From NCBI GenBank assembly GCA_903923175.1, contig CAIXWQ010000725.1, positions 1-35,223 on the forward strand: 35,223 nt of DNA, in the 5' to 3' direction. The notes beneath the pieces are model-generated. The model made no database searches, was not told where the DNA came from, and saw only the letters and a program-made list of their open reading frames with translations. This stretch comes from an uncultured delta proteobacterium (GTDB lineage: Bacteria; Myxococcota_A; Polyangia; Polyangiales; JADJMO01). A program made the position numbers and the translations under genes. The stretch's first letter is position 1, and each line of letters starts with the position of its first letter. Below, in pieces: positions 1,976 to 31,049 of this stretch.

Positions 1976-2193
1976 GTGATCAACGGCGCCCACGTCACCG
2001 CCTACGTGCCCGAAGGCCGCGTCGCAGGTCGAGGAAGCGGCCGATCTTGAAGAAGCGCACGTACTCCCAACGGGTACGCCTTCCGAGAAGAACGTGCTCG
2101 TGCGCTTGCTCGCGGCCCCGGCGGGCTCGACGCTCTGCGCGGCCGGCGTGACGCTGTTTGGGCTAGAGCAACGTCGGCGAGAGACGGGACGGC
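1976..2193 (+). pseudogene. Frameshifted plus-strand remnant upstream of the histidine kinase
   Basis: AAGGAG (1964-1969) is spaced six bases from GTG 1976, a strong ribosome binding site. The frame reads INGAHVTAYVPEGRVA, then must shift by one base near 2027 to continue as QVEEAADLEEAHVLPTGTPS and NVLVRLLAAPAGSTLC. After the shift the frame runs without a stop straight into the histidine kinase frame. It is either an independent small gene damaged by one indel, or an old N-terminal part of the kinase. No family is recognised. Confidence 0.4.
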
Positions 2194-2195
2194 GC

Positions 2196-5100
2196 ATGAG
2201 CGAGAACGACGGCGAAGCCACGACCGCCAAGTTGGTTCGCGAACTCGAACAGCTTCGGGCGGAGAACGCCGAGCTGAAGCGGGCACGGCCCGCCGACCTG
2301 GCGACGAAAGACCAGCACCGCCTCATTCTCGAGGCCGCCTCCGACCTCGTATTCTCGCTGACGCAAGACGGTCGATACACCGACGCCAACCAAGCTCTCG
2401 CCGAGGCGTTCGGCAACGCGAGTGACGGCACCGTCCGGGAGGTCGTCCGCACCTTCGCAGACATCACCGAGTGGAAGCGGGCCGAGGAAGCTCGTCATCG
2501 GTCTGAGCTTGCCCTGAAGGCTAGTCAGCGGGTTGCCCACCTCGGAAGCTGGACCTGGTACATAAAGACGAACCTCCTCGAGTGGTCCGACGAGATGTTC
2601 CGCCTGTTCGGGATCGAGCCCCAGGGCTTCACGGGGGATCTCGCTGCCGTCGTCGACGCAGCCATCCATCCCGACGACCGAGAAGCCGTAGACCGCTCCA
2701 ACCGAGCGGTCGCCGAGGAGGGCAAGCCCGCGCCCCTCGAATACCGCGTCGTCTGGCCCGACGGCACCGTTCGCACGGTGTGGGCCGAAGCGGGTGAGCT
2801 GGTACGCGACGCAGAGGGGCGACCCTCGGTGTTGACCGGAATCGTGCAGGACATCACCGAGCGCAAGCGGGCCGAGAAGGCGCTGCGGGAGAGCGACGAG
2901 CGGACACGCACCCTCGTCGAGTGGATGCCCGATGCGACCGTCGTACATCGTGCGGGAAGGATTCTCTTCGTCAACCCCGCCGCCGTCAGGCTCTTTGGCG
3001 GCCAGTCCGATAGTGACTTGATCGGCAGGCCGGTCTTGGACCTGGTGGACCAAGAGTTTCGTGACGTCGTATTGGCGCGAATGGCAGCGACGATCGACAC
3101 CGGCCGACCATCCCCGGCTTTGGAACAGCGGCATCTCCGCCTGGACGGGACCGCACTCAGCGTCGAAGTCCAGGGCACTGCCATCCCCTATGACGGCGAA
3201 ACTGCGTTTCTCGCCATCGTTCACGACATCACCGACCGCAAGCGGGCCGAGGCCGCACACCGCGAGAGCGAGGAGCGCTACCGAACGATCGTCGAGAACA
3301 TCCCCGATGCGCTCATCGTCCATGACTTCGACGGCAACATCCTCGACGCGAACGATCGCGCCTGCGAACTCTACGGCTACGAACGCGACACTCTTGTCGG
3401 ACAGAACTTGCGCGTGATCTCTGTTCCCGAGCGCATGGAGCTCGAGACGTACCTGATGGACGTGCTGCGTGAGCGCCGAGAGGCTCGCTTCGAGGGGCTG
3501 TCGGTGCGCCGAGACGGGACCCGGTTTCCGACAGACGTGGTTGCCCGATTGGTTTCGATCGCGGGTCGTGGAATCGTGCATGGCTTCGTTCGCGACGTCA
3601 CCGACCGCAAGCGGGCCGAGGATGCATTGAGCGAGTCGCAATGGATGCTCAACGCAGTGCTCGATACCATCCCCGCGCGTGTCTTCTGGAAGAACCGGGA
3701 GTGCAGGTTCCTCGGGTGCAACGCCCTGTTCGCCGCCGATGCGGGCCTCGAGTCGCCCGCCGAGATTGTCGGCATGGACGACCATCAGATGAGCTGGCGG
3801 GCCGAGGCCGAGGCGTTCCGCGCCGACGATCGCATGGTGATGGACACGGGGGAGTCGAAGATTGGCTACGAAGAGCCACAGAGCACAACCAATGGGACGC
3901 GCTGGCTCCACACCAGCAAGGTTCCGCTGAAAGGACCGGACGGTAGGATACTCGGCGTGCTCGGGACGTACGAGGACATCACCGACCGCAAGCGGGCCGA
4001 AGACGCCCTTCGCGAACTCACCACGCGCCTTCACCTTGCCACGGTCTCGGCGAAGGCCGGGGTCTGGGATTGGAACCTCCAGACGAACGAGATGGTCTGG
4101 GATGACCGAATGCTGGAACTCTACGGACTCGACCGCGGGACCTTCCCCGGAGGGATTGAAGCCTGGGAGCGCGGGCTTCACCCGGAGGATCGTTCCAGGG
4201 CCATCGAGGAGTGCCAGGCTGCTTTGCGCGGAGAACAGGACTTCGACGCTGAGTTCCGTGTCCGGCGCCCTGATGGCACCGTGGGTCATCTCAAGGCGAA
4301 CGGACTCGTGCTTCGTGATGGGGTCGGAAAGCCAGTCCGAATGATCGGCTTGAACACAGACATCACCGATCGGAAACACGCCGAGCAGGAGAGGACCATG
4401 CTCGAAGCGCAGCTTCAGCAGGCGCAGAAGATGGAGTCTGTCGGCCGCCTGGCGGGTGGCGTCGCCCACGACTTCAACAACATGCTCGGAGTGATCATCG
4501 GGCACACTGAGCTGGCGTTGGAGCAAGTGGAGCCGACGCAGGCGCTTCGCGAAGACCTCCGGGAGATTCAAGGTGCCGCGAGACGTTCCGCCGACCTCAC
4601 GCGGCAACTGCTCGCGTTCGCCCGCAAGCAGACCGTCATGCCGAAGGTGCTGGACCTGAACGACATTCTGGCCGGCATGTTGAAGATGCTGGAACGGCTC
4701 CTTGGCGAGAACGTGCGGCTCGAGTGGTCGCCCTCCCGGAGCCTGTGGCCGGTGAACGCGGACCCATCCCAGATCGATCAGATCCTAGCGAACCTCTGCG
4801 TCAATGCGCGAGACGCCATCGGCGACGTCGGCACGCTGACCATCGCAACGGCAAACGTCTCGGTCGACCCAGCCCAGTGTGCTGCACGGCCGGGGCTTCT
4901 TCCTGGCGACTACCTGCAACTCGTCGTTCGCGACGACGGGTGCGGAATGGATCGCGAGACGCTCTCCCACATCTTCGAGCCCTTCTTCACGACCAAAGGG
5001 GTCGGCAAGGGAACTGGGCTCGGCCTGGCTACGGTCTACGGGATCGTGAAGCAGAACCACGGCTTCATCGACGTCGAGAGTGCCGTCGGGCGCGGCACCG

Positions 5101-28186: not shown

Positions 28187-28247
28187 TTCTCGGTGGCGCC
28201 CTGCCCGACGGCGGGGCGCTCGCCTTTTTGTGCTACGAAGCCCTCCC

Positions 28248-28856
28248 ATGGCTCGGGTGCTGGTGCCGATCGCCCTCGCGGGCTGCGTGCTCGCGTGCGC
28301 GGCGCCCGCCGACGCGCGGCAGCAGATCGACCTGCTCGTCTCCGGCGGGATCTCGCCGCCGAGCAACTCCGACTACCGCGCGCAGACCAGCGAGCTCGGG
28401 TACGACACGCGCGGCAAGTCGCTGCAGTACGAGATCGAGGCCGCCGCGATGTTCGGCGTCGCGGTGGACGGCTGGCTCACGGTCGGGCCGCTCCTGCGCG
28501 CGTCGATCGGCCGGCTCGGCTCGCCCTACGACGGCGTGCAGCCGATCACGACCGACGCGGCGCTCCTCGGCGTGCGCGCCGAGGCCGCCGTCTTCGACTT
28601 TCCGCGCCTCTTCTTCTGGGGCGACACGGGGCTCGGCCTCACGTCGATCGGCCAGCCCGGCGGCTACTTCCACGGCGCCGCGTGGGCGGTGCGCGGCGGC
28701 GTCGGCATGCGCATCGGCACCGACGCGGGCGGCGCGCGCCTGCGCGTCGGCTACGGCACCATGCCGACGTTCTCCGGCGTGACCACGATCGGCAAGGGGT
28801 TCGACTTCGGCGGCTTCGTGCTCGCGATCGACGGGGTGATCCGTGTCCTGGGCTAG
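28248..28856 (+). CDS. Predicted outer-membrane beta-barrel-like protein (202 aa)
   Basis: The ATG at 28248 opens a signal peptide (MARVLVPIALAGCVLACAAP, then ADARQQ), cleaved probably after ADA. The mature part alternates polar and apolar residues with Gly turns (AAAMFGVAVDGWLTVGPLLR, LFFWGDTGLGLTSIG, FHGAAWAVRGGVGMRIG), as in eight-stranded outer-membrane barrels or their periplasmic relatives. No family is recognised and there is no terminal Phe. TACGAA (28234-28239) preceded by TGC lies eight bases before the ATG with no Shine-Dalgarno, so a leaderless mRNA is possible. It overlaps the next gene by 14 bases. Confidence 0.75.
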   Translation: MARVLVPIALAGCVLACAAPADARQQIDLLVSGGISPPSNSDYRAQTSELGYDTRGKSLQYEIEAAAMFGVAVDGWLTVGPLLRASIGRLGSPYDGVQPITTDAALLGVRAEAAVFDFPRLFFWGDTGLGLTSIGQPGGYFHGAAWAVRGGVGMRIGTDAGGARLRVGYGTMPTFSGVTTIGKGFDFGGFVLAIDGVIRVLG

Positions 28857-29376
28857 CCGTCTCGCGGCGACGCTCGCGGCGGTCACGGTCACGGTCGCGG
28901 CGCTCGCGGGCACCTCGTGCTCGGCGACGCCGATCCTCAAGGTCGACGAGGAGCTGCCCGTGATCGACCTCGAGTCGTGCGTCGCGGGCACCCCGCCGTG
29001 CGTGCGGCAGGGGACCGTGGTTCCGTTCAGCATCCTGCTCCCCGACGGCCAGCACGAGCTCGCGCTCCTGCCGGGCGGCTCGATCGAGGGGCCGCTCAAC
29101 CAGCCGAGCAAGCCGGGGCGCCTCGCCTACCTCGCGCTCGGGCTGAACGTCGACGCGCCGCCCCCGGGCTCGTCGGACGTCACCGCGCTCGAGGTCTCGA
29201 TCGTCGGCGACGACACCTCGAAGGTCATCGTCCAGCCGAGCCCCGGATTGCGGCGGATCGAGCTCGACATGCGCGAGTACGCCCCGAAGCCCGGTGCGCG
29301 GCTGCGTCTGCGCTGCGTCTCGGGCGGCGCGCTCTATTTCACCTACGCGATCGGCCGCTGGTTCTACGGCCAGTAA
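28843..29376 (+). CDS. Lipoprotein of unknown function (177 aa)
   Basis: GTG 28843 lies inside the end of the upstream gene, in another frame. The signal peptide is Ala/Val/Thr-rich with lipobox LAGTSC. The mature protein has paired Cys (LESCVAGTPPCV) and a beta-rich body (SIVGDDTSKVIVQPSPGLRR, LRLRCVSGGALYFTYAIG). No family is recognised. The overlap with the beta-barrel-like gene suggests the two act together in the outer membrane. Confidence 0.8.
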   Translation: MSWASRLAATLAAVTVTVAALAGTSCSATPILKVDEELPVIDLESCVAGTPPCVRQGTVVPFSILLPDGQHELALLPGGSIEGPLNQPSKPGRLAYLALGLNVDAPPPGSSDVTALEVSIVGDDTSKVIVQPSPGLRRIELDMREYAPKPGARLRLRCVSGGALYFTYAIGRWFYGQ

Positions 29377-29429: not shown

Positions 29430-31049
29430 ATGCCGGAGCCCGGCGCTCGAATTCGTGGATACGAGGTCTGGGGTCGACTCGGCGAAGGAGGCATGAGCGA
29501 GGTGTGGCTCGCCAAGCACGCCGAGCTCGGCGTGCCGGTGGTGCTCAAGACGCTGCGCGCCTCGGTCGGTGAGGAGCGCACGCGCGGCTTCGCGCGCATC
29601 CTCCACGAGGCGCGGCTCATGGCGCGCATCCCGAGCCCGCGCGTGGTGCGCGCGATCGACGCGGGGGTCTGGTACCCCGGGGTCGGCGACGCCGATCTCG
29701 AGGCGCTGCGCGCGCAGGACGGCAGCGTCGCGTTCGGGACCGGCACCGAGGTCGAGTCGCACCCGCGCGGCGCGGTCACCGATCCGAGCGAGCTCGTGCC
29801 TTCGGCGCCCATGGGGACGCCGTACGTCGTGCAGGAGTACGTCGACGGCATCGATCTCGCGGAGCTGGATCGCGAGCGTCGACGCGCGCTCGGGGTCGGG
29901 CTGCCGCTCTGGTACGTCTGCCACACCATCGAGGAGGTCGCGCTCGCGCTGCAGGCCTCGCACCAGACCGGCGTCATCCACCGCGACGTCAAGCCGTCGA
30001 ACGTCTTCGGCTCGCCGCAGACCGGCATCCGCCTCGGCGATTTCGGCATCGCCGTGCAGAACGAGCGCTCGAAGCCCCCCGCCGAGATCAGCGGCACCTT
30101 CCGCTTCATGGCGCCCGAGCAGCTGCGCGGCGACGTCCTCGGCCGCGCGTGCGACGTCTACGGCCTCGGCGCCACGGCCTGCGATCTGCGCTACGGGCGA
30201 CCGCCGTACGTGAACGTATCGGCCGCGCTCGACGCGAACGTCGCGCCCAAGTTCCCCGAGCCGCAGAGCGCGTCGGAGGCGTATTTCCAGCACCTGCTCG
30301 GCGAGATGCTGCGCACCGACCCGGGCGCGCGGCCGCACAGCCTCGCGCTGCTCGCGCGCCACTTCCGCGCCCTCGAGGCCGCGCTGCGGCCGCGCCTCCC
30401 CGTGGTGCAGGTCGATCGCAATCGCATCCTCGTCGGCGAGTGCTCGGTGCGCTTCGAGGTCGGCGACATCGCCTGCGCGCGCGCCGACGCGATCGTCAAC
30501 TCGGCGCACGATCACATGCGCATGCGCACCGGCGTCGGCCAGGCGCTGCGGGTCGCGGGCGGCGACGAGATCGAGGACGAGGCGCTGCGCGGCGGCAACC
30601 GCGCGCTCGGCGCCTGCGTCGCGACCGGGGCGGGCAGGCTCGACGCGCGCTGGGTGCTGCACGCCGTCTCGGCGTGGAACGAGGTCTCGTGCGTCGGCCG
30701 CGCGGCGCACCGCACGCTCTTGCTCGCCGACGTGCTCGGCTTGCGCTCGCTCGCCATCCCCGCGCTCGGCACCGGCGCGTCGCGCGTCACCATGGAGACC
30801 GCCGCCGACGCGCTCGCGACCGCGCTGCGCTCGCACCTGCTGATCGGCGGCTCGCGCCTGCGCAGCGTGACCTTCGTGCTGCGCGACGAGACGCTGCTGC
30901 AGGTCTTCCGCGAGGTCGCGCTCGAGGCGCTGCGCGACGACGACGAGCTGCCGCCCGCCTACGACATGGGGCTGCAGGTCGAAGGGGGCGCGGTCGTCCC
31001 CGACGCGGCGACGTTCCTCGCGGCCTCGACGCCGGACGACTCTCGCTGA
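29430..31049 (+). CDS. Ser/Thr protein kinase fused to a macro domain
   Basis: The product is 539 aa from ATG 29430. The kinase domain (about 10-315) is complete: LGEGGMSEVW loop, Lys40, HRDVKPSNV with Asp186, GDFGIA with Asp204, RFMAPEQL. An insertion of about 45 residues (near 82-125, with VESHPRGAVTDPSEL) sits before the hinge EYVDG. The macro domain (about 340-490) shows GDIACARADAIVNSAHDHM with Asn357, GVGQALRVAGG, VLHAVSAWN and SLAIPALGTGASRVTMETAA, the ADP-ribose-pocket layout. The second Asn of the usual Asn-x-Ala-Asn motif is replaced. There is no membrane segment or extracellular sensor. It likely phosphorylates Ser/Thr and binds ADP-ribose or a related nucleotide, linking the two signals. 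TATCCT lies six bases before the ATG, so the mRNA may be leaderless. Confidence 0.9.
   Translation: MPEPGARIRGYEVWGRLGEGGMSEVWLAKHAELGVPVVLKTLRASVGEERTRGFARILHEARLMARIPSPRVVRAIDAGVWYPGVGDADLEALRAQDGSVAFGTGTEVESHPRGAVTDPSELVPSAPMGTPYVVQEYVDGIDLAELDRERRRALGVGLPLWYVCHTIEEVALALQASHQTGVIHRDVKPSNVFGSPQTGIRLGDFGIAVQNERSKPPAEISGTFRFMAPEQLRGDVLGRACDVYGLGATACDLRYGRPPYVNVSAALDANVAPKFPEPQSASEAYFQHLLGEMLRTDPGARPHSLALLARHFRALEAALRPRLPVVQVDRNRILVGECSVRFEVGDIACARADAIVNSAHDHMRMRTGVGQALRVAGGDEIEDEALRGGNRALGACVATGAGRLDARWVLHAVSAWNEVSCVGRAAHRTLLLADVLGLRSLAIPALGTGASRVTMETAADALATALRSHLLIGGSRLRSVTFVLRDETLLQVFREVALEALRDDDELPPAYDMGLQVEGGAVVPDAATFLAASTPDDSR

Follow-up and report, generated by a model that had tools for sequence, protein, structure and literature searches.

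Many of the bacterial Hanks-type kinases that have been studied receive their signals through extracellular or protein-interaction sensors. ThsA has a macro domain that acts as its receptor of NAD-derived nucleotides (PMC11204291), and the macro domain of ALC1 inhibits its own fused motor, which provides a precedent for gating in cis (PMC8249414). In the SirTM/GcvH-L operon, a macro domain reverses the ADP-ribosylation of a GcvH-like protein (PMC4518038). A rule from the literature on hydrolysis by macro domains (PMC10221186) asks for Asn or Ser together with Gly in loop 1 and, in loop 2, for a hydrophobic-aromatic pair; macro domains 2 and 3 of PARP14 are readers for which no hydrolysis has been observed (PMC10499325).

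Here we describe a gene that joins a Hanks-type kinase to a macro domain, found in the window, i.e., the whole 35,223-nucleotide stretch of DNA analysed, from an uncultured delta proteobacterium, a soil myxobacterium. Both domains are well known, and their combination appears to be undescribed in the open literature searched: none of the papers that our literature search, partial in its coverage, returned deals with bacterial kinase-macro fusions, and the architecture may already have entries in sequence databases. Conservation of the fusion in at least 38 related bacteria suggests an undescribed switch from NAD-derived signals to protein phosphorylation.

Architecture and kinase domain

The gene is a single uninterrupted frame of 539 codons (window positions 29430-31049, + strand), preceded in the window by pnp and then two small envelope-like genes. 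Its features, with those of the two upstream genes, are as follows.

28230..29376, + strand: two upstream genes, for a 208 aa outer-membrane-like and a 177 aa lipoprotein-like protein (by reading)
29430..31049, + strand: kinase-macro fusion gene, 539 aa (frame, Pfam, scan of orthologues)
29430..30389, + strand: Hanks-type Ser/Thr kinase domain, residues 1-320 (Pfam, PknB match at Z 30.8, residue conservation)
29670..29807, + strand: insert ahead of the hinge, residues about 81-126, 46 residues, private to this protein (alignment, model confidence, codon-position GC)
30393..30941, + strand: macro domain with its N-terminal strands, residues 322-504 (Pfam, residue conservation, model, solved structures)
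30942..31049, + strand: C-terminal tail, residues 505-539, of low confidence in the model, with the stop codon (alignment, AlphaFold2)

A sequence-only reading of this DNA had proposed a kinase and a macro domain in one polypeptide, and Pfam bears this out, with matches to Pkinase (E 2e-34, above the curated cut-off) and Macro (E 2.5e-14, residues 356-461, 53.7 bits against a cut-off of 22). NCBIfam models of ADP-ribose-binding macro proteins match residues 335-503 at scores under those models' own cut-offs. Because Pkinase and Macro occur together in all 40 orthologues, each scanned singly, the fusion is not due to chance. An AlphaFold2 model of the full 539-aa protein, made with the 40 orthologues, reached a pLDDT of 87.1 and a pTM of 0.86; its low-confidence parts are the insert (roughly residues 99-124) and the C-terminal tail, in which a D-x-GL motif recurs in many of the aligned orthologues. 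As had also been proposed, the protein has no transmembrane sensor: no transmembrane stretch was found, the highest 19-residue hydropathy being 1.5, within the macro fold.

The kinase fold matches that of M. tuberculosis PknB (Z 30.8, rmsd 1.9 over 255 residues, 31% identity), and its motifs comprise the Gly loop G18-x-G20-G21, K40, E60, H184-R185-D186, K188, N191, D204-F-G206, and P229-E230. The residues by which Hanks-type kinases are recognised (VAIK Lys, HRD Asp, DFG Asp, and catalytic-loop Asn) are all present. H184, D186, K188, N191, D204, G206, P229, and E230 are invariant in the 40 aligned proteins, K40 (the VAIK Lys) is kept in 39, and E60 and R185 each in 37. The earlier description of the kinase as catalytically complete thus holds, with its catalytic residues intact and kept almost throughout the alignment, and kinase activity is to be expected since these residues are almost invariant.

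The extra segment ahead of the hinge, to which the same reading had drawn attention, is present in the window protein but is not a family trait, as it has no counterpart in any of the 39 other aligned orthologues. For the same reason it was rejected as a functional hallmark. Its codon-position GC pattern is that of the surrounding gene, which indicates coding sequence and not a frameshift, and it is mostly of low confidence in the AlphaFold2 model.

Distribution of the fusion

A survey of kinase-macro fusions, which had been suggested as a check, was carried out as a homologue search in the window's own myxobacterial order, to which Labilithrix also belongs; of the 145 genomes covered, 85 gave macro matches. 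The survey verified 41 full-length loci, window included, in 39 of the 145 genomes, and the architecture extends to a second class of the phylum. All 40 places fetched besides the window hold a full-length kinase and macro domain; matching frames in G064 and G067 were left out of both the alignment and the verified count. A phylum-wide draw of 379 genomes held no further genome of the order among the entries listed, which include just part of the genomes that gave no match. Main-group proteins are 44-65% identical to that of the window, and those of a divergent group about 38-41%; the fusion is distributed patchily over five family-level groups. In G001, the one further genome of the genus to which the window belongs (87% complete), the only macro match is weak and of stand-alone size.

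Another class of the phylum has more distant kinase-macro proteins in two of its families (L176-L179), and a further one is encoded by Sorangium cellulosum So0157-2 (L166). A genome_contigs scan with the full kinase-macro alignment, the patterns of which fell in the kinase, returned ordinary kinases only, with a macro domain at none of 80 loci. Among plasmids, no match covered 80% of the query, and those listed were kinase matches.

Several details of these loci may be recorded here. In the divergent fusion of S. cellulosum (L166, 349-1965), SSDD replaces the NAAN motif, and a stand-alone macro protein of the window genome (L081) has a similar SSDD motif. In the divergent group, a conserved same-strand gene for a protein of about 600-720 aa follows the kinase-macro gene (L074, L075, L077, L078), with a Cys/His segment that, by reading, resembles a putative SWIM zinc finger.

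Proposed mechanism and genomic context

We give roughly even chances to a reading, based on sequence and model, in which the protein would be a soluble kinase whose macro domain acts as a non-hydrolytic reader of an ADP-ribose-type ligand and alters kinase activity in cis. The macro domain would bind an ADP-ribose-type group, whether free ADP-ribose, O-acetyl-ADP-ribose, or an ADP-ribosylated protein; the bound ligand would change the activity of the attached kinase, and NAD+ turnover or ADP-ribosylation would thereby be converted into phosphorylation. In this scheme we infer the ligand, the regulation in cis, and the substrates of the protein. A more specific version, put forward tentatively, is a conserved one-component switch of myxobacteria: a macro domain that reads ADP-ribose would control a Ser/Thr kinase and, in some members of the clade, the glycine cleavage system would be phosphorylated in response to ADP-ribosylation or NAD+ state.

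The window genome encodes two sirtuins (SIR2 genes), both on contigs other than that of the kinase-macro gene. They are possible suppliers of O-acetyl-ADP-ribose, a point that argues only weakly for the proposed mechanism because sirtuins are common. Both carry the canonical HG motif, not the QG motif of class M; no class-M sirtuin was recognised in the window genome, and no sirtuin gene lies beside the kinase-macro gene. Neither TIR_2, the sole TIR model searched, nor DarT gave a match in this genome, and a Thoeris-like role and a DarT/DarG role are accordingly not favoured. The PARP search of the window genome says nothing either way, as its controls were silent. Defence-library matches to MADS6 and PD-T4-6 were not accepted as pointing to a defence role, because they span almost nothing but the kinase domain.

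Linkage to glycine-cleavage (gcv) genes was counted by tblastn; a neighbour cluster labelled gcvP included antisense shadow frames (L059) and was discarded for this count. In one family, f12, the kinase-macro gene lies less than 10 kb from glycine-cleavage genes in 13 of the 22 carrier genomes. It is directly downstream of a gcv gene, on the same strand, in eight f12 genomes. The gene directly upstream is gcvH in G100, G104, G125, G127, G130, and G140, a gcvPA-like gene in G080, and gcvP in G017, where gcvT and gcvH are on a different contig from the kinase-macro gene. One gene or a gap separates the two in G102 and G142, and gcvP is divergent from the kinase-macro gene in G120, G126, and G136. 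Six loci have intervals of 4, 12, 35, 39, 41, and 42 nt from gcv to kinase-macro gene, and the others have longer ones; the short intervals follow gcvH, gcvPA-like, or gcvP genes (L041, L043, L044, L050, L056, L061). At L042, a second kinase gene (2183-3226, + strand) is located between gcvP and the kinase-macro gene.

As the gcv-linked label needs only two changes on the tree, a single origin of the linkage is probable, followed by its retention while the gcv genes rearranged. The linked loci share ancestry and are for that reason not independent evidence of function. There are no gcv genes near the window's own kinase-macro copy. Partial synteny is confined to the two nearest relatives. The 208 aa gene has relatives at L039 and L040, so that the synteny of the upstream genes is family-level only. 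Within the one family, a functional tie of the macro-domain kinase to glycine cleavage is possible, and the glycine cleavage system is plausible as an output or input of the protein.

An equally simple reading is substrate targeting, in which the macro domain would recruit ADP-ribosylated proteins for phosphorylation without gating the kinase, like the reader macro domains of PARP14. Recruitment draws on the same pocket evidence as gating and on the position of the f12 gene 4-42 nt after gcvH or gcvP genes at six loci, GcvH-like proteins being ADP-ribosylation targets of a macrodomain operon in other bacteria (PMC4518038). However, the window copy lies away from the gcv genes, and its genome has only the two HG sirtuins and no recognised member of class M. 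On balance, we consider recruitment possible, if somewhat unlikely.

The macro domain pocket

Structure prediction of the C-terminal part, proposed earlier as a check of its identity, gave a macro domain: modelled alone, it has a pLDDT of 95.9, and comparison with solved macro domains gives Z 22-27. Macro domains that bind ADP-ribose are among the closest solved structures: macroH2A1.1 (Z 26.6), PARP14 macro domains 1-2 (Z 26.5), and PARP14 macro domain 3 (Z 25.0). TTHA0132 (Z 25.0, 32% identity) is also near. The pocket consists of D346, which we take to be the adenine-site Asp of macro domains, loop 1 (VNSAHDHMRMRTGVG, from residue 356), and loop 2 (ALGTGAS, 445-451). D346, A445, T448, and G449 are invariant in the 40 aligned proteins, and G447 is kept in 39, a pocket composition that would suit an ADP-ribose reader.

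Loop 1 of the window protein reads MRTGVG, and the GGG of hydrolases (GGGVD, with the catalytic Asp) is absent from all 40 aligned proteins, as is the loop-2 aromatic after GTG. A MacroD-type protein of the window genome, L079, has both features (NAANAMLMGGGGVDGAIH and STGVYGYP) and served as an internal control, from the same genome, for their absence. Since both are lost family-wide and present in L079, and since PARP14 offers reader precedents, the macro domain is more likely a reader than an eraser. The sequence-only reading had likewise suggested binding rather than hydrolysis, but from the lack of the second Asn, which is not the main ground. That position is indeed His360 in the window protein, and His also in its nearest relative, but 32 of the 40 aligned proteins keep the Asn. 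In the alignment, PARP14 macro domain 3, which was solved with ADP-ribose, does not have Asn there either. Because most relatives keep the Asn and no other aligned protein has the kinase insert, neither the loss of the one nor the presence of the other is likely to be a key to the mechanism.

His stands in place of the second Asn in the window protein and also in the relative nearest to it, and a handful of other proteins have Tyr, Arg, or Thr there. These replacements could also mean that nucleotide binding has been lost and that the macro fold is now a structural or protein-interaction module; retention of the adenine Asp and the GTG loop over deep divergence makes this rather improbable. 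A bifunctional kinase and ADP-ribose eraser, with the macro domain as hydrolase or deacylase, is very improbable: most relatives do have Asn at the second-Asn position and certain macro domains hydrolyse via other chemistries, yet the GGG loop and loop-2 aromatic are missing throughout the alignment while L079 has both, and several of the closest solved structures are readers.

Comparison with known systems

If a macro-domain reader does control the kinase in cis, a soluble, conserved kinase would form a direct bridge from ADP-ribosylation or NAD+ metabolism to phosphorylation, and the gcv-linked copies would offer a concrete candidate set of substrates. Kinase fold and motifs are common to this protein and PknB-type Hanks kinases of M. 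tuberculosis. However, the latter have a transmembrane helix and PASTA repeats, whereas the 539-aa protein has neither and carries a macro domain instead.

On the macro side, the fold and phosphate loop are shared with PARP14 macro domains 2 and 3 and with macroH2A1.1 (Z up to 26.6), but these are eukaryotic proteins with no kinase fusion and about 22-24% identity to the window macro domain. Of the natural solved structures, the bacterial TTHA0132-type macro domain is the most similar in sequence (about 32% identity), and it has a similar loop 1, also lacking GGG; unlike the 539-aa protein, it is a stand-alone domain.

The SirTM/GcvH-L/LplA2/macrodomain operon (PMC4518038) resembles part of the kinase-macro family in that a macro gene is linked to a gcvH-type gene. 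That operon, however, encodes its macro domain as a stand-alone hydrolase, and its other members include a divergent GcvH-L and a class-M sirtuin, whereas the kinase-macro family has ordinary glycine-cleavage genes and a kinase fusion. With both window sirtuins of the HG type and the window copy not linked to gcv genes, the parallel is suggestive only. In Thoeris, ThsA likewise presents a macro domain as a receptor for NAD-derived nucleotides, but its effector is a transmembrane module and not a kinase (PMC11204291). ALC1/CHD1L, finally, shares with the proposed mechanism the regulation of an enzyme in cis by a macro domain, the enzyme there being a chromatin-remodelling ATPase (PMC8249414).
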